The notes below the pieces were generated by a model. The model made no database searches. It saw only the letters and a program-made list of their open reading frames with translations, and had not been told where the DNA came from. A program made the position numbers and the translations under genes. A DNA stretch of 64,000 bases. Origin: Sandaracinus amylolyticus. Its GTDB lineage: Bacteria > Myxococcota_A > Polyangia > Polyangiales > Sandaracinaceae. The stretch covers positions 1,550,001 through 1,614,000 of the forward strand of contig NZ_CP070225.1 in NCBI RefSeq assembly GCF_021631985.1, in the 5' to 3' direction. Shown here one piece after another: positions 32,370 through 39,294 of the stretch (positions within the stretch are counted from its first letter, which is position 1; every line of letters starts with the position of its first letter).

Positions 32370-33176
32370 ATGAACGCGACGATCGAATGGGCGCAGCTCA
32401 CACCGCAGCTCCGCGTGATGGCCACCGAGGAGCGCGCGCTGATCGTGCGCGCCGACGTGCAGCAGGACGCGCCGACGCTGCGCTTCGCGAGCGACGACGA
32501 TCACGAGCGCGCGACGCGCTGGCTGCTCGACGGTGCGATCCGCGCGGCGTTCTCCGCGGCGCGCGAGGAGCTCGTGCCCGCGATCACCCCGGTTCGCTGG
32601 GCCTGGCGCCTGGTGGGCCTCTATCACCTCACGCACTCGACGCCGCGCTTGCTCGAGGAGGCGGCGGCGCGCTTCGAGGCGAGCGGGCGCGGCGCGCTCG
32701 CGGAGTGGGCGCGCGAGCGAGCGCGCGAAGAGACGTTCCACGATCGGCTCGCGCTGCGTGATCTCGCGGCGATGGGCTACGACGCCGAGCGCGTGGTCGC
32801 GTCGGTGACCCCGCCGATCGCGGCCCGGCTCGTCGAGATCTTCACGCGCTACGCGATCGCGCCCGATCCCATCCGCTGCGTCGGCTACGCGTACGCGCTC
32901 GAGCGCCTCGCGACGACGGTGCGCGCGGAGGACGTGAAGCGCATCGAGGCGATCCTCCCGGATGGCATGCGCGCGACGCGCTGCCTGCGCGTGCACAGCG
33001 CGATCGGCAGCGACGGCGATCACGTCGCAGAGACGGTGCGCGTGGTCGCGCGCTGCAGCGGGAGCGAGCGCCGCGAGGTCGCCACGGCGGTGCACGAGAC
33101 GGCGCGCCTCTGCTTCGCGCCGCCGCCCGGCGGACATCCGACGGACGACGAGATCGCAGCGCTGCTCACGCGCTGA
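32370..33176 (+). CDS. Putative iron-containing redox enzyme (heme-oxygenase-like fold)
   Basis: A 268-residue, mostly helical cytosolic protein. REETFHDRLALRDLAAMGYD (about 117-136) has the acid/His pattern of the heme-oxygenase-like diiron oxidase (TenA/PqqC/HDO) superfamily. A late helix, RVHSAIGSDGDHVAETVRVV (about 209-228), offers His, Asp and His ligands, with two residues more than the usual H-x3-D-x2-H. Members include oxidases that cut, desaturate or decarboxylate small molecules and peptide-derived substrates. The N-terminal 50 residues (ALIVRADVQQDAPTLRF) are beta-like and less typical. It leads a + strand run with a tiny peptide gene, a halogenase and a peptidase/hydroxylase frame, so a role as a tailoring oxygenase is plausible. 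Exact reaction unknown. Confidence 0.55.
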   Translation: MNATIEWAQLTPQLRVMATEERALIVRADVQQDAPTLRFASDDDHERATRWLLDGAIRAAFSAAREELVPAITPVRWAWRLVGLYHLTHSTPRLLEEAAARFEASGRGALAEWARERAREETFHDRLALRDLAAMGYDAERVVASVTPPIAARLVEIFTRYAIAPDPIRCVGYAYALERLATTVRAEDVKRIEAILPDGMRATRCLRVHSAIGSDGDHVAETVRVVARCSGSERREVATAVHETARLCFAPPPGGHPTDDEIAALLTR

Positions 33177-33281
33177 GCGCGATCACCGCGAGACGAAAGA
33201 GCACGCGCGGGCCCGAGGGCTCGACGCGCGAACGGACGACGTGTGTCCACGACCCCCCAACCACTGCAGGAGAGAGAGCAC

Positions 33282-33437
33282 ATGGAGCGCAACGACAGCC
33301 AGCAGCAGCACGACGCGACGATCGACATGGAGACCCGCGAGGCGCGCGAGCGCTTCGAGGTGAAGGAGAGCGCGGAGACGCTCGAGGTCGTCGAGCTCGA
33401 GAGCGCGCCCCTCACCGACGTGAACTTCGGCTTCTGA
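33282..33437 (+). CDS. 51-residue peptide, candidate RiPP precursor
   Basis: A small gene with a good CAGGAG ribosome site nine bases before ATG 33282. The peptide is strongly acidic and helical through about residue 40 (leader-like, rich in Glu, Gln, Arg), then turns to LEVVELESAPLTDVNFGF at the C-terminus. It has no Cys, Trp, Tyr, Ser-rich or Gly-rich tail. The end supplies Asp, Asn and two Phe. Immediately downstream is a strong intrinsic terminator, and the next gene is a halogenase 72 bases away. Being short, having its own ribosome site and terminator, and sitting beside modification enzymes and a peptidase fit a precursor peptide. A plain regulatory or structural peptide cannot be excluded. 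Confidence 0.65.
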   Translation: MERNDSQQQHDATIDMETREARERFEVKESAETLEVVELESAPLTDVNFGF

Positions 33438-33445
33438 GACGCACT

Positions 33446-33490
33446 GCCCTCGGGCTCGTCGCGCACGAGCCCGAGGGCGCTGCCCCTTTT
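33446..33490 (+). terminator. Intrinsic terminator after the precursor gene
   Basis: A perfect 14-bp stem (gccctcgggctcgt, 33446-33459, with complement 33465-33478) and a 5-base loop are followed by gctgcccctttt. It sits between the peptide gene and the halogenase. Partial read-through would give much more peptide mRNA than enzyme mRNA, the usual arrangement in precursor-peptide operons. Confidence 0.85.
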
Positions 33491-33509
33491 CGATCACCGG
33501 AGGCGAGAG

Positions 33510-35330
33510 ATGACGTCGAGCGTGGAGATGGTGGACTGCGTCGTGCTCGGGGGTGGGCCCGCGGGCAGCACCTTCGCGGCGATCGCGAAGAAGTACGCGC
33601 CCGAGGCGCGCGTCGTCGTGCTCGAGAAGGAGCGCTTTCCACGCTGGCGCATCGGCGAGTCGACGATCCCCGCCGCGAACGGCGTGTTCAAGGATCTCGG
33701 CGTGTACGACACGCTGCTCGCGTCGCCCTTCGTGAAGAAGATGGGCGTGACGTTCGTGTGGGGCCGCGATCGTCAGCCGTGGAACGCGGACTACCTCACG
33801 CTGCGCACCACGACGAAGCACGAAGGCGCGGAGATCATCGAGGTCACGGGGCAGGACTTCGAGGCGCTGCTCGGCGACGGCAACAAGCGCGACACGCCGT
33901 ACTCCGCGTTCAACGTCGAGCGCTCGAAGTTCGACGACATCCTGCTGCGCAACGCGGAGCGACTCGGCGTCGAGGTGCGCGAGGGCACGCGCGCGACCGC
34001 GGTGACGCGCGTCGACGGAACGAGCGCGCACGTGATCGCGTGGGAGGACGATCAGGGCGCGCGGGGCACGATCCGCACCGAGTTCGTGATGGACGCGAGC
34101 GGGCTCTCGAGCCTGCTGACGCGCGGCCAGCGAGTTCATGACGAGTCGCTCAACAACTTCGCGGTCTACGGATATCTGCGCAACGCGGAGTGGAAGGTCA
34201 CGTACAGCGGCACGAAGGATCGCTCGACGGTCTTCATCGCTGCGGTCGAGAAGGGATGGATCTGGTACTTCCCGCTCGGCGAGGACCTGATGACGGTCGG
34301 CGCGGTGACCAACACGCGCCACTTCAAGGATCGCTTGAAGGACGTCGATCTCGAGACGTTCTTCTGGGAGATGCTGCGCTCGTGCCCCGAGGTCGCGGGG
34401 CTCGTCGAGAGCGCGACGCTCCGCGACGACATCCTTCCGGGCAACGCGCGCGTCGGTGCCTGCCGCGACTGGTCCTCGTGGGCGCGCGAGCCGATCGGCG
34501 AGGGCTGGGCCGCGGCGGGGGATGCGGCGATGTTCGTCGATCCGATCCTCTCGACCGGCGTGACGCTCGCGCTGCAGACCGGACATCGCGCGGCGTACAC
34601 GTGGCTCACCGCGCGTCGTCGTCCCGATCTCCCGGCAGGCTCGTTGTGGCGCGCGTACGCGGACTATCTGCGCGGCGAGTACGGCGCGTTCCTGCGGCTC
34701 GCGCGCTACTTCTACGGCAACAACAAGGCCGCGCCCTCGTGGTGGTGGGAGGCGCAGCAGCTCGTGAACGCGTCGGGGCGCCTCGCGCTCAGCGATCGAC
34801 AGGCGTTCACGATGGCGACCGCGGGGTTCTTCCCGGTGCCGCGCGCGCTCGGTGCCGCGGCCGAGGTCGTGGTGCCGCTGCTGCAGGGCATCACCGGCGG
34901 TGCGCGCGGTCTCGAGCGCATCTACCAGGTGCCGGGCGTGCCCTCGCACGACGCGCTACCCGCGTGCGCGCTCGAGCTCGTCGCGCCGTTCCGCGTCGAC
35001 CTGCGCACCGAGCCGAACCTCGAGCGCGGCGTGATCGGATCGCTCGAGGTCTATCACGACCTCGTCACCGAAGAGCCCGACATGACGCACCGGCTCGCGG
35101 CGGTCCCGGCGCGCATCGATGCAGCGCTCGCGCCGATCGTCGAGGTGCTGCAGCGCTGTCGCACGGTGAGCGAGCTGCTCGAGCGCGCGCCGAGCGTGAT
35201 GCCCGCGAGCACCGATCCGAGCGTGGTGCGCAAGGCGGCCCTCGATCTCGTGCGCATCGCCGCGCTGAAGGGCTTCGTGCGCATCGTCGAGCCGCGCGTG
35301 TCGGTGACCGAGAGCGCGCCGTGCGGCTGA
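33510..35330 (+). CDS. Flavin-dependent halogenase-like protein with C-terminal helical (PqqD-like?) domain
   Basis: A 606-residue FAD enzyme. The nucleotide fold is at VVLGGGPAGST (12-22). FPRWRIGESTIP (43-54) and the Lys pair in FVKKMGVTFVWGR (74-86) match the halogenase GES region and catalytic Lys. GWIWYFPLG (249-257) is the WxWxIP halogenase motif with Phe for Ile. GDAAMFVDPILSTGVTLA (338-354) is the second FAD contact. Such enzymes chlorinate or brominate aromatic rings using reduced flavin. Beyond the usual fold, residues about 530-595 (IDAALAPIVEVLQRCRTVSELL to LDLVRIAALKGFVRIVE) look like a small winged-helix unit reminiscent of PqqD-type peptide-recognition domains. A GGAGG site precedes the ATG. 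The stop lies inside the next gene. A monooxygenase activity remains possible. Confidence 0.82.
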   Translation: MTSSVEMVDCVVLGGGPAGSTFAAIAKKYAPEARVVVLEKERFPRWRIGESTIPAANGVFKDLGVYDTLLASPFVKKMGVTFVWGRDRQPWNADYLTLRTTTKHEGAEIIEVTGQDFEALLGDGNKRDTPYSAFNVERSKFDDILLRNAERLGVEVREGTRATAVTRVDGTSAHVIAWEDDQGARGTIRTEFVMDASGLSSLLTRGQRVHDESLNNFAVYGYLRNAEWKVTYSGTKDRSTVFIAAVEKGWIWYFPLGEDLMTVGAVTNTRHFKDRLKDVDLETFFWEMLRSCPEVAGLVESATLRDDILPGNARVGACRDWSSWAREPIGEGWAAAGDAAMFVDPILSTGVTLALQTGHRAAYTWLTARRRPDLPAGSLWRAYADYLRGEYGAFLRLARYFYGNNKAAPSWWWEAQQLVNASGRLALSDRQAFTMATAGFFPVPRALGAAAEVVVPLLQGITGGARGLERIYQVPGVPSHDALPACALELVAPFRVDLRTEPNLERGVIGSLEVYHDLVTEEPDMTHRLAAVPARIDAALAPIVEVLQRCRTVSELLERAPSVMPASTDPSVVRKAALDLVRIAALKGFVRIVEPRVSVTESAPCG

Positions 35331-37669
35331 CGATCGAGCTCGTGCCGCGGGATCCGATCGCGCTGCGCGAGCTCGCGGACGCGGTATCGGATCCCAAGGC
35401 CGCGCAGTACGGCGCGTACCTCGATCGCGCTGCGCTCGAGCGTCGGATCGCGATCGATCCACGAGAGCGCGCCTCGATGCGCGCGTGGCTCGGGCGTCAC
35501 GGTGCCTCGCGCGCGCCGCGCGCGATCGACGGCCCTCGCTCGATCGTCGTGTCGATCGATGCCGCGGGTCTCGCAGCGATGCTCGGTGCGCCGACGGCGC
35601 GCGTGCTCGTGGGCGAGCGACGCCTCGGCCCCGAGCTCGCGCTCTCGCTCCCCGATCCATTGCGCGGACGCGTGCGAGCGCTCGCGCTCTCGAACGATCA
35701 CGTGACGCCCTCGTCGTCGCGACCGAGCGCGCCCGATCGTGTGGTCGCTCCGCCCGAGCGCGGCCTCGCGCCCGCCGACGTGCGTCGCGGCTATCGCTTC
35801 GATCCGAGCGTGCGTGGTGGGGGCGAGACCATCGCGGTGATGGCGCTCGGTGGCCTGCCGCGCGCCGAGGATCTCGACGGGTTCTGGCGCGCGCACGACG
35901 TGCCGCTGCCCGAGGTCGATCTCGTGCCGCTCACGGCGCTCGGTGCGTGTGCGAGCGATCCCAGCGCACGCTTCGAGACCACGATGAGCGTGCAGTGGAT
36001 CGGCGCGCTCGCGCCCGCCGCGCGCATCGTCGTCTACGTCATCGATCCCGCGCTGGTCGCCGATCCGTGGAGCACGTTCCTCGAGGCCGTGCTCGACGAC
36101 GCGGCGCGTGCGCCGACGATCGCGGTCACGAGCTGGAGCACGCCCGAGCGACAACATCGTCGCGTGCACGGTCGCGAGGGCTTCGCCGCGCTCCTCGATC
36201 AAGCAGCAGTCCTCGGCGTCAGCGTCGTCGCGGCGAGCGGGGACTGGGGCGCGTGCGGCGGGTTCCCGCGGGTGATGACGCCGGATGGACCGGTGTCGCC
36301 GTCGATCGCGCCGCACGCGACGTTCCCGGGCTGCGAGCCTCGCGTGCTCAGCGTCGGCGGCACCCAGGTGATCGACGTCGAGCGCTGGCGCGAGCGCGCG
36401 TGGAACGCGCCCGTCTCCGATGCGATCCGCGATGCAGTGCATCTTCCGCGGCTCGCGAGCGGCGGCGGCTTCAGCGAGACCGTCGCGATCCCCGCGTGGC
36501 AGCGCGACGTGCTCGCCAGGTCGTACGCGCGCAGCGACGGCACCGCGATCGTCCCGCAGGGTCGTGCGCAGCCCGACGTCGCGCTCGCCGCGTGGGGCCC
36601 CGATCACGCGTTTCGCGCGCTCCTCGACGGCACGTGGCGCGACGACGCGGGCGGCACCAGCCTCGCCGCGCCGATCTGGGCTGCCATCCTCGCGTGCGCG
36701 AACGAAGCGCGACGTCGCGTCGATCGACCGCGCGTCGGACACGTCGCGCCGCTGCTCTATGCGACCCCGGCGTTGCGCCCGATCACCGAGGGCGCGACCG
36801 ACCTCGATCTCCCCACGCTCGACCCGCACGGCCGTCGCACGTTCCTGCGTGTGCCCGGCTACGTCGCGACGAGCGCGTGGAGCCCCGCGACCGGCCTCGG
36901 CGTGCCCGACGTCGGCGCCCTGATCACCGCGATTGCTCGTAGAGAGGAGCCTCCGATGCGCGCCGCCATGTACCAGCGCAAGCACGTCCGCAGCGCGAAC
37001 GCCGCCGCCAAGGACTACGACTTCATCCGCCTCCCGACGCAGATCGACATCGCGCCGCTCGTCGACGAGCTCGAGCGCGCCGGCGCGCTGCCCTACGTGG
37101 CGAGCCTGTGGAAGTGGCACCGCGGCACGAAGTTCTGCGTGCTGCGCGCGGGCCCGCCGGGCGCGCTCCCCGGCGACGAGCTGATCACCGGCAAGGACGT
37201 CGATGCGCCGATCCTCGCGACGCTCCCGCGCTTCCGCGCGCTGCTCGACGAGATGTTCCCGGTGCGCGCTCCGCTCGCGTGGATCGGTCTCTCGCCCGCT
37301 CGCTCGCAGATCCGCATGCACGTCGACAACACGCAGCACTGGGACGAGCACCACCGCATCCACGTGCCGCTCGTCACCACGCCGGGCGCGCGCCTCATGG
37401 TGTCGGGTGGCTTCGTGCACATGCCCGCGGGCAGCGTCTGGGCGTTCAACAACAGCCGCCCACACGGCGCGATCAACACCGGCCCCGATCGACTGCACCT
37501 CGTGATCGATCTCGCGTCGACGCCCGAGGTCGAGGCGATGCTCGCGCGCGGCGAACGGGTGCGCGGAGAGCGCGATCGCGACGCGGTGATGGTGCTCTCC
37601 CGAGATCCGCTGGGCGACGGCGGCGCGGGAGAGCGCCCGGACGTGCTCGCGCGCATGCGAATGCAGTGA
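35321..37669 (+). CDS. Pro-S53 (sedolisin) peptidase fused in frame to an Asp/Asn beta-hydroxylase
   Basis: One open frame of 782 codons starting GTG, overlapping the halogenase by 10 bases. Residues 1-95 match the pro-kumamolisin activation domain (LVPRDPIALRELADAVSDP, QYGAYLDRAALERR). Residues about 145-538 are an S53 peptidase: Glu219 in RFETTMSVQWIGALAP, oxyanion Asp308 in AASGDWG, Ser447 in GGTSLAAP. The usual Asp four residues after the Glu is Ser223, so activity may be altered. Residues about 550-782 match aspartyl/asparaginyl beta-hydroxylases: MHVDN (His667, Asp669), NSRPHG (His715), Arg724 for 2-oxoglutarate. There is no signal peptide. At Met546 (36956) an internal AGAGGAG ribosome site could also start the hydroxylase alone. 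Proposed roles: leader removal and Asp/Asn hydroxylation of the upstream peptide. Confidence 0.8.
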   Translation: MRLTIELVPRDPIALRELADAVSDPKAAQYGAYLDRAALERRIAIDPRERASMRAWLGRHGASRAPRAIDGPRSIVVSIDAAGLAAMLGAPTARVLVGERRLGPELALSLPDPLRGRVRALALSNDHVTPSSSRPSAPDRVVAPPERGLAPADVRRGYRFDPSVRGGGETIAVMALGGLPRAEDLDGFWRAHDVPLPEVDLVPLTALGACASDPSARFETTMSVQWIGALAPAARIVVYVIDPALVADPWSTFLEAVLDDAARAPTIAVTSWSTPERQHRRVHGREGFAALLDQAAVLGVSVVAASGDWGACGGFPRVMTPDGPVSPSIAPHATFPGCEPRVLSVGGTQVIDVERWRERAWNAPVSDAIRDAVHLPRLASGGGFSETVAIPAWQRDVLARSYARSDGTAIVPQGRAQPDVALAAWGPDHAFRALLDGTWRDDAGGTSLAAPIWAAILACANEARRRVDRPRVGHVAPLLYATPALRPITEGATDLDLPTLDPHGRRTFLRVPGYVATSAWSPATGLGVPDVGALITAIARREEPPMRAAMYQRKHVRSANAAAKDYDFIRLPTQIDIAPLVDELERAGALPYVASLWKWHRGTKFCVLRAGPPGALPGDELITGKDVDAPILATLPRFRALLDEMFPVRAPLAWIGLSPARSQIRMHVDNTQHWDEHHRIHVPLVTTPGARLMVSGGFVHMPAGSVWAFNNSRPHGAINTGPDRLHLVIDLASTPEVEAMLARGERVRGERDRDAVMVLSRDPLGDGGAGERPDVLARMRMQ

Positions 37670-37737: not shown

Positions 37738-39294
37738 ATGCGCGACGCGCACGAGGCGATGGGGCGACGGCTGCGCGAGCTGCGGCTCGAGCGTGATCTG
37801 CAACAGGCGGACGTCGCGCGCCGTCTCGGCGTGTCGCCCGCGTACCTCTCGCTGATCGAGAAGGGCAAGCGCGCGGTGCAGCTCCCGCTGCTCTTCCAGG
37901 CGCTCGAGCTCTACGGCGTCGGCATGGAGGACTTCATGTCGTCGCTCGGCGAGCCGCGCGTCGACGACGGGCTCGCGCGCCTCCTCGACGAGCCGCTCTT
38001 CCGCACGCTCAACCTCTCGCGCGAGGACCTCGCGACGCTCGGCGCGGAGCCCAAGGTCGCGACGACGATCACCGCGCTCTTCAACCTCTACAAGAACACG
38101 CGCTCGCAGCTCGATCATCTGCTGCGCGATCTCGCGAAGCAGGAGCGCGACGCGGGCGTCGTCGCGGTGCCCGTGGGCGGCGAGCGCGACGAGCCCTACG
38201 GCTTCGACTACTCGCCCTTCGACGAGGTGACCGACTTCCTCGAGGAGGTCGGCAACTGGTTCCCGTCGCTCGAGGAGCGCGCCGATCAATGGCGTCGCGA
38301 TCACGGCCTCGCGGAGGTGGAGCGCGTCACCGCCGACGCGCTCACGCGCGCGCTGCGCGAGCAGGACGTGCACGTGCAGCTCGTGCGCGGCGAGACGAGC
38401 TCGGTCATCCGCCGTCTCGATCGCGAGGGCGGCGTGCTGCGCATCTCGCGCGACGTGCCCGAGCACCGTCGTCTCTTCCAGCTCGCGCACGCGATCGGCC
38501 TGCGCCTGCTCGACGACGAGAAGCTGCACGAGCCGATCATCGCGGAGACCAGCGCGGGCCACTCGCAGACCGCGCGCCTGCTGAAGATCCACCTCGCGAA
38601 CTACTTCGCGGGCGCGGTGCTGCTCCCGTACGAGACGTTCTTCCGCGAGGCGCAGCGACTGCGCTACGACGTCGAGCGTCTCGCGCACGTGTTCGACGCG
38701 TCGTACGAGACCGTCGCGCACCGGCTCTGCAACCTGAGCGATCCCAAGCGACGCGCGGTGCCGTTCCACTTCCAGCGCGTCGACGTCGCGGGGAACATCT
38801 CGAAGAGGTACAGCGCGACCGGCCTTAAATTCCCGCACGGCACGGGCAGCTGTCCGAAGTGGATCGTCCACACCGCGTTCCTCACGCCGCACGCGATCGC
38901 GAAGCAGTACTCGCTCTTCCCCGACGGCTCGATCTACTTCTGCTTCGCGAAGGTGATCGCGGAGCCGATCGGCGGATCGCTCGCGAAGGGCACGTGTTAC
39001 GCGATCGGCCTCGGCACCCACGCCGACAACGCGAAGCACCTCGCGTACGCCGACGAGATGCCCTTCGTCGATCCGCAGAAGATGGTCGTGCCGGTGGGCA
39101 CGACGTGCCGCTTCTGCGAGCGCACCGACTGCAACCAGCGCGCAGCGCCGAGCTACAAGTTCGCGTTCCGCGTCGACGAGTACATCAAGAAGGACAACTT
39201 CTTCTCGCCCTTGGTCGTCGAGGACGAGCTCACGCCCGCGCAGGGCGAGCCCGAGCCCGACGTGGCGCTCGCAAAGCTGCGAAGAAGGCGTTGA
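37738..39294 (+). CDS. XRE/ScfR-RamB-like transcriptional regulator with IrrE-like domain
   Basis: A 518-residue regulator. The N-terminal helix-turn-helix (about 7-62: MGRRLRELRLERDLQQADVARRLGVSPAYLSLIEKGKRA) is of the XRE type. The middle (about 225-330) has the IrrE/ImmA-like fold (FQLAHAIGLRLL, HLANYFAGAVLLPYETFFREA), in which the HExxH protease motif is replaced. The C-terminal part (SKRYSATGLKFPHGTGSCPKW, TTCRFCERTDCNQRAAP) matches the short-chain fatty acyl regulator domain, with a C-x2-C...C cluster. Relatives (RamB, ScfR) control acetate, propionate and glyoxylate-shunt genes. An upstream TTG in frame (37702) is possible, but the promoter elements argue for the ATG. Whether it controls the preceding cluster is unknown. 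Confidence 0.88.
   Translation: MRDAHEAMGRRLRELRLERDLQQADVARRLGVSPAYLSLIEKGKRAVQLPLLFQALELYGVGMEDFMSSLGEPRVDDGLARLLDEPLFRTLNLSREDLATLGAEPKVATTITALFNLYKNTRSQLDHLLRDLAKQERDAGVVAVPVGGERDEPYGFDYSPFDEVTDFLEEVGNWFPSLEERADQWRRDHGLAEVERVTADALTRALREQDVHVQLVRGETSSVIRRLDREGGVLRISRDVPEHRRLFQLAHAIGLRLLDDEKLHEPIIAETSAGHSQTARLLKIHLANYFAGAVLLPYETFFREAQRLRYDVERLAHVFDASYETVAHRLCNLSDPKRRAVPFHFQRVDVAGNISKRYSATGLKFPHGTGSCPKWIVHTAFLTPHAIAKQYSLFPDGSIYFCFAKVIAEPIGGSLAKGTCYAIGLGTHADNAKHLAYADEMPFVDPQKMVVPVGTTCRFCERTDCNQRAAPSYKFAFRVDEYIKKDNFFSPLVVEDELTPAQGEPEPDVALAKLRRRR

Follow-up and report, generated by a model that had tools for sequence, protein, structure and literature searches.

Sandaracinus amylolyticus (assembly GCF_021631985.1) carries, in a stretch of 64,000 nucleotides of contig NZ_CP070225.1 (positions 1,550,001 to 1,614,000, here called the window), a locus in which the gene for an acidic peptide of 51 residues is set among genes for a protein with a heme-oxygenase fold, a flavin halogenase-type enzyme and a protein that joins a pro-kumamolisin (S53) domain to an aspartyl/asparaginyl beta-hydroxylase (AspH) domain. 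The question raised by this locus is whether the peptide is the substrate of the enzymes encoded around it. The answer proposed here, to which we assign a probability of about 80%, is a pathway of the ribosomally synthesized and post-translationally modified peptide (RiPP) type, in which the peptide is the precursor, a heme-oxygenase-fold dimetal oxidase (HDO) and a halogenase of the CndH/CmlS type act on it, and the core is modified at its C-terminal Gly-Phe. The four plus-strand genes, separated by gaps of 105 and 72 bases and at one junction overlapping by 10 bases, lie exactly where a preliminary description of the window had placed them. The source genome, 10.96 Mb in size, comprises a 10,754,065-base chromosome and one more contig, which is 209,732 bases long.

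The peptide gene starts behind a good Shine-Dalgarno sequence (AGGAGAGAGAG), and the ribosome sites are conserved among its homologues. In the sister genome G178 the encoded protein is 100% identical and the gene differs by one synonymous codon change (DNA identity 99.4%), whereas the neighbouring genes and gaps show 86-95% DNA identity, and no other part of the operon is as well conserved as the precursor. Homologues were found at 19 loci in 18 genomes, in most cases next to the HDO gene and/or the halogenase gene. These genomes come from a sample of 379 Myxococcota genomes, in which the metagenome-assembled genomes (MAGs) are incomplete, and from a contig scan with two peptide patterns. All 18 genomes found with the halogenase subfamily hold a precursor with the C-terminus [P/L]L-x-D-x-[N/D/E]-x-G-F-stop, and the peptide ending in TDVNFGF, to which the preliminary description had drawn attention, is real and has a relative in each of them. 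At the DNA level the pattern L-x-D-x-[N/D/E/K]-x-G-F-stop was matched once in 17 of the 18 genomes and, in keeping with its two clusters, twice in Nannocystis exedens, and each of these matches falls on the precursor; a lone extra match, in the MAG KLAP118, has TGG in place of the stop. The alternative of unrelated neighbouring genes with a chance peptide frame draws on the many spurious frames of high-GC genomes and on matches to the same pattern in 50 of the 367 halogenase-free genomes of the phylum sample (against 12 of the 12 with the halogenase). These matches mostly have TGG at the stop position, and none of the five inspected (G112, G156, G360, G066 and G315) looked like a precursor. 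We consider a chance frame refuted by the synonymous-only change, the conservation in 18 genomes, the genome-unique motif and the conserved ribosome sites. A PHROGs search with the peptide gave no match.

The core ends in Phe at all 19 loci. It reads PLTDVNFGF in the window and in Minicystis, PLTDINFGF in Nannocystis, PLSDFEPGF in KLAP118, PLHDYDPGF in Polyangium, and PLTDDNAGF, PLTDENAGF, PLSDENPGF or LLGDANPGF in MAGs; Trp is absent, and Tyr occurs in Polyangium only. Two types of leader precede this common core, a short acidic one (the window type) and a nitrile hydratase-like leader peptide (NHLP) in Polyangium and MAGs. The Polyangium precursor scores 56.1 bits against TIGR03793, the NHLP model (cut-off 50.9), and three MAG precursors score 37-45 bits, under the cut-off; the window leader matched no family in profile searches and does not qualify under TIGR03793. 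Because the alignment runs continuously from [L/V]-x-V into the core across both leader types, the short acidic form may derive from an NHLP precursor through loss of the helical leader. The preliminary description had suggested looking for a conserved leader and a variable core, and the reverse was seen, with a nearly invariant core and a changing leader. This invariance suggests one conserved product rather than a diversified antibiotic family, and a core kept fixed despite changing leaders and gene order points to one selected product in far-apart predatory myxobacteria. The NHLP leader in part of the family, above the cut-off in Polyangium, fits the model of a RiPP precursor and argues for the proposed pathway, in which the precursor is encoded by a gene linked to those of modifying enzymes and divides into a leader and a core.

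The halogenase subfamily was found in 12 of the 379 genomes of the phylum sample, and an HDO orthologue in those 12 and one further MAG only (12/12 versus 1/367; Fisher p 8e-22, uncorrected for phylogeny). The carriers of this halogenase and the peptide are Sandaracinus-type genomes, Minicystis rosea, three Nannocystis species, KLAP118 (G108), Polyangium species and five MAGs of one family. A small open frame beside the halogenase, as the preliminary description would have it, is present at the operon-type loci but not in the five MAGs; there the halogenase stands with AspH, with or without S53, no peptide was found next to it, and the peptide gene lies directly beside the HDO gene on another contig. 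That the peptide-HDO pair is kept on a contig other than that of the halogenase indicates that the gene link is functional and not merely positional. The constant set thus consists of the peptide, the HDO and the CndH/CmlS-type flavin halogenase, with S53 nearly constant and AspH optional. No peptide of this kind lies next to the halogenases that are more distant (34-39% identity; L020-L037, L063-L065), which on this ground belong to another subfamily. Two findings had been named that would speak against the locus as a peptide pathway, namely homologous halogenases without a linked peptide and a peptide frame not conserved in related genomes; the frame proved to be conserved and was present in every genome of the halogenase subfamily. 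Both the co-occurrence of halogenase and HDO and the position of the core motif, always at the precursor, support the RiPP-type pathway, and two leaders on one core, co-occurrence and the conservation in 18 genomes bear out the early reading of the peptide as almost certainly the substrate of a RiPP-type pathway, a reading that, with one correction to its reasoning, these genome comparisons strongly support. So far the pathway appears confined to Myxococcota, and the two-pattern contig scan may miss relatives outside the phylum.

Between precursor and halogenase, a GC hairpin is present at all seven operon-type loci (z -2.7 to -4.5), followed by a T run in most, with a stem sequence that differs between genera. 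The RNA fold of the window hairpin has -39.1 kcal/mol (z -3.6); an automated terminator scan, which demands five T, did not list it, since the window has TTTT. The element fits a partial termination that gives more precursor than enzyme, and its retention at 7/7 loci, together with the strong conservation of the precursor, is a further reason for the RiPP reading. The same element bears on a rival explanation, in which the peptide would be a small activator or adaptor partner of the HDO or the halogenase, the enzyme acting on another substrate, and Gly-Phe an unmodified docking tail. A near-invariant C-terminus is more like a binding tail than like a variable natural-product core, and the nearest characterised halogenases, CndH and CmlS, act on carrier-bound substrates, as is known for the family. 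We nevertheless hold a docking tail to be improbable: the hairpin between precursor and enzyme fits a substrate produced in excess, part of the family has the NHLP leader, a known RiPP-precursor module, oxidative enzymes are encoded in every member and a peptidase-fold protein in most, and no carrier or non-ribosomal peptide synthetase (NRPS) genes were found in the shared gene set.

The first enzyme of the set was matched by Pfam Haem_oxygenas_2 (PF14518) with E 3e-6, just below the cut-off, and its AlphaFold2 (AF2) model, with a mean confidence (pLDDT) of 90.9, confidently adopts the heme-oxygenase fold. The closest structural matches of the model are 3dde (Z 19), HrmI (Z 17), CADD (Z 16), UndA (Z 15) and PqqC (Z 14.9). 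A complete HDO set has six to seven metal ligands; residues E121xxH124, E178, H209, D215 and H218 are invariant among 17-20 homologues, and where UndA and SznF have a Glu in their first helix the window protein appears, as judged by spacing, to have Thr88. In fold and in the conserved carboxylate/His set (ExxH, DxxH) it resembles UndA, CADD, HrmI, SznF and AetD, but these differ in their substrates, known members acting on fatty acids, free amino acids or protein Tyr. The reactions of its relatives take place next to carboxylates and include decarboxylation, N-oxygenation and rearrangement. The HDO enzymes have been reviewed (PMC13108848).

The second enzyme was matched by Pfam Trp_halogenase (PF04820) with E 4e-30. 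Its nearest solved structures are CndH (3e1t), 8zop, CmlS (3i3l), MPY-type enzymes and PltA; all of the best solved relatives are halogenases. The motifs GGGPAG, Lys77 and W250xW252YxP are invariant, and in an alignment CndH and CmlS have the Lys and WxWx(I/F)P at the same places; by its GxGxxG, active-site Lys and WxWxIP-type motif the protein can be classed as a putative flavin-dependent halogenase. To our knowledge, no flavin halogenase has been described that halogenates a Phe directly, without prior activation. The preliminary description had let the halogenase act on a Phe or on a product of the iron enzyme; the first of these, as a direct reaction, lacks known precedent, and either prior oxidation of the ring or C-terminus would be needed or the flavoenzyme would be an oxygenase like QhpG. 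As a peptidyl monooxygenase related to QhpG, LodB and GoxB, the flavoprotein would yield an oxygenated peptide or a protein-derived cofactor with no halogen. NCBIfam ranks QhpG second, LodB fourth and GoxB fifth for this protein, QhpG, whose closest similarity is to CmlS, hydroxylates a Trp within a peptide (PMC7876137), and a core without Trp, and with Tyr only in Polyangium, offers in Phe a poor target for halogenation. Set against this are the full conservation of the halogenase Lys and WxWxIP-type motif, aligned with CndH, CmlS and PltA-type enzymes, and the solved relatives named above; we regard a monooxygenase as unlikely, while giving it serious consideration.

The C-terminal part of the halogenase (AF2, residues 439-606; pLDDT 73 overall, above 90 in the helices) forms a predicted winged helix. 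It is similar to the RiPP recognition elements (RREs) of ThcOx (Z 6.2), PbtF (Z 6.0), PqqD (Z 5.5) and TbiB1 (Z 5.0), with a fitting order of elements, and also to a methyltransferase (Z 7.5), to CmlS (Z 5.6) and to other winged helices. No Pfam match, no sequence-profile match to solved RREs and no significant Foldseek match were obtained for this domain. Its likeness to an RRE is a lead that is suggestive only, since such Z-scores can reflect a common arrangement.

In the window, 35321-37669 is a single open frame in which the pro-S53 half, with a GTG start at 35321, is joined to the AspH half. With the GAGGAG...ATG found inside the frame at 36956, AspH could also have a ribosome site and a start of its own. 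The fusion is also kept in G178, whose halogenase is 95% identical, whereas S53 and AspH are separate genes in all other genera with AspH. The S53 domain matches kumamolisin with E 1.5e-24 and keeps Ser447 and Glu219, but the residue aligned with kumamolisin Asp82 is Ser, Thr, Ala or Gly in 17 of 17 copies (Ser223 in the window), so that the Ser-Glu-Asp triad is incomplete. Its N-terminus has no hydrophobic, signal-peptide-like start, and the protein may be a cytosolic Ser-Glu protease or a peptide-binding pseudoenzyme. The S53-type domain named in the preliminary description is thus present, and the removal of the leader ascribed to it is uncertain. In AspH the residues for iron and 2-oxoglutarate, H122xD124, H170 and R179 (AspH numbering), are invariant in 14 homologues, and the retention of catalytic residues in HDO, halogenase and AspH is another reason to favour the RiPP-type pathway. 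The idea that the core Asp or Asn is conserved as the target of AspH fails, because Minicystis and two Nannocystis genomes, which have no AspH orthologue, keep the same core; AspH cannot explain the invariant Asp. In the second cluster of N. exedens (L053:9016-12564) AspH directly follows the halogenase and S53 is absent; the other cluster (L052) has S53, and the two may share the S53 protein.

The steps of the proposed pathway would be as follows. Enzyme binding would fall to the region before the core, and the winged helix that ends the halogenase may be its docking site. The HDO would oxidise the C-terminal Gly-Phe, with oxidative decarboxylation to a styrylamide, N-oxygenation and ring hydroxylation as candidate reactions, and the flavoenzyme would then halogenate, or oxygenate, the activated residue. 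AspH, where present, could add a beta-hydroxyl to the core Asp or Asn in a later, optional step, and the S53 protein, a putatively cytosolic protein whose triad is altered, may bind or cut the peptide and so free a short core. Several points weigh against this pathway. We infer the chemistry at Gly-Phe from the enzyme families, the loss of the triad Asp makes the peptidase activity of S53 uncertain, an S53 orthologue is absent from KLAP118 among the halogenase genomes, and no dedicated transporter or flavin reductase was found in the shared gene set. In addition, the MAG G223 has an HDO orthologue but lacks orthologues of the halogenase, the peptide, S53 and AspH; its pathway may have been lost or be incomplete, or the HDO may serve another purpose there. 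This solitary orthologue (L085:8283-9110) is 50% identical to the window protein and keeps all putative metal residues.

The nearest known systems are the Srp brominated proteusins (SrpE/SrpI), in which SrpI brominates NHLP peptides at a C-terminal Trp (PMC10858898, PMC12615548). They share with the present family a precursor with an NHLP leader, as in Polyangium and MAGs, and a flavin halogenase that acts, or in the present family would act, on a C-terminal aromatic residue. SrpE, however, has the core LCCCW with its C-terminal Trp, the system includes a YcaO, and SrpI was found through the Trp halogenase MibH and has no RRE, whereas the pathway described here has a core ending in Gly-Phe, a CndH/CmlS-like halogenase with a winged-helix tail and an HDO in every case. 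A halogenated proteusin of the Srp type does not agree with Phe at 19/19 loci and a halogenase nearest to CndH, not to a Trp halogenase. CndH, CmlS and PltA, by sequence the closest solved relatives, share the catalytic Lys and the WxWxIP-type motif, and CmlS a similar C-terminal domain, but they work on carrier-protein substrates of NRPS and polyketide synthase pathways and not on a ribosomal precursor. The QhpG, LodB and GoxB maturases belong to the same flavoprotein superfamily and act on a gene-encoded peptide or protein; what they modify is a Trp in a subunit of an enzyme, and they come with no HDO, S53 or DxNxGF peptide. The pathways of pyrroloquinoline quinone (PQQ) and mycofactocin likewise start from a short precursor whose aromatic core is C-terminal and conserved, and they include a peptidase, oxidases of their own and, in PqqC, the fold of the window HDO, but use radical S-adenosylmethionine (radical-SAM) enzymes and a PqqD-type chaperone. 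Neither a radical-SAM maturase nor such a chaperone was found at the window locus, in the scanned neighbours or in the shared set. The nitrilobacillin (pes) RiPPs (PMC13060819) combine C-terminal modification with Asp beta-hydroxylation of the core; they employ an asparagine synthetase-like enzyme and an MNIO and none of the enzymes of the present pathway.

A search of full-text open-access literature (RiPPs with a halogenase, heme-oxygenase-like proteins, NHLP and the host genera; subscription papers fall outside its coverage) gave no description of this set. No match was found among named classes either, in agreement with the preliminary description, and the gene set represents a candidate RiPP class. 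Previous reports in which an HDO and a flavin halogenase share a ribosomal precursor were likewise not found. If the proposed pathway is correct, two enzyme chemistries would be added to C-terminal peptide modification, a CndH-type halogenase may use peptides instead of carrier proteins, and two unrelated leaders would bear a common core. A further-reaching proposal, which we put forward as speculative and rather doubtful, is a new RiPP class in which the HDO and a leader-guided, RRE-bearing halogenase turn the invariant C-terminal D-x-N-x-G-F into one conserved small molecule. Instead of being an antibiotic, this product would have a role in physiology, as a redox cofactor, a metal ligand or a signal, and would correspond to PQQ or mycofactocin in a chlorinated or oxidised form. 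Direct testing is possible, since strains of Nannocystis exedens, Minicystis and Polyangium can be grown in culture. The features of the locus are listed in Table 1.

Table 1. Features of the Sandaracinus amylolyticus locus, in window coordinates
Feature	Position	Strand	Basis
Heme-oxygenase-fold dimetal-oxidase-like protein (HDO type)	32370..33176	+	PF14518, AF2 fold, invariant residues, co-occurrence with halogenase
Precursor of 51 aa with acidic leader and core PLTDVNFGF at the C-terminus	33282..33437	+	Identity in G178; homologues at 19 loci in 18 genomes
Conserved C-terminal L-T-D-V-N-F-G-F	33411..33434	+	Alignment, genome-wide pattern counts; every precursor has the L, D, G and F unchanged
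Terminator/attenuator-like element: 15-bp GC hairpin, then TTTT (33487-33490)	33445..33479	+	RNA fold
Flavin-dependent halogenase-type enzyme, CndH/CmlS/PltA branch	33510..35330	+	PF04820, solved relatives, Lys77 and W250-x-W252-Y-x-P
Winged-helix C-terminal part of halogenase	34968..35288	+	AF2 of residues 439-606; suggestive only
Pro-kumamolisin (S53)-type peptidase domain, no signal peptide	35321..36949	+	Kumamolisin match E 1.5e-24; triad Asp replaced by Ser223
AspH-type domain (aspartyl/asparaginyl beta-hydroxylase, 2-oxoglutarate/iron)	36956..37669	+	PF05118 E 1e-7; in frame with S53 domain

Downstream, the cluster is adjoined by a gene for an ScfR-type regulator with helix-turn-helix, IrrE-like peptidase and ScfRs domains (window 37738-39294). 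As a separate observation, frames of DCC-family (DUF393) thiol oxidoreductases with in-frame TGA were noted on L112 (minus strand, ~1180) and L113 (minus strand, ~1296), and also in G022, G307 and G337. They read LWDGDC-GF-TGA-RRLAAW and LWDGD-TGA-GF-TGA-RKLAAW and look like selenoproteins, one of them with two selenocysteines in its CxxC motif.

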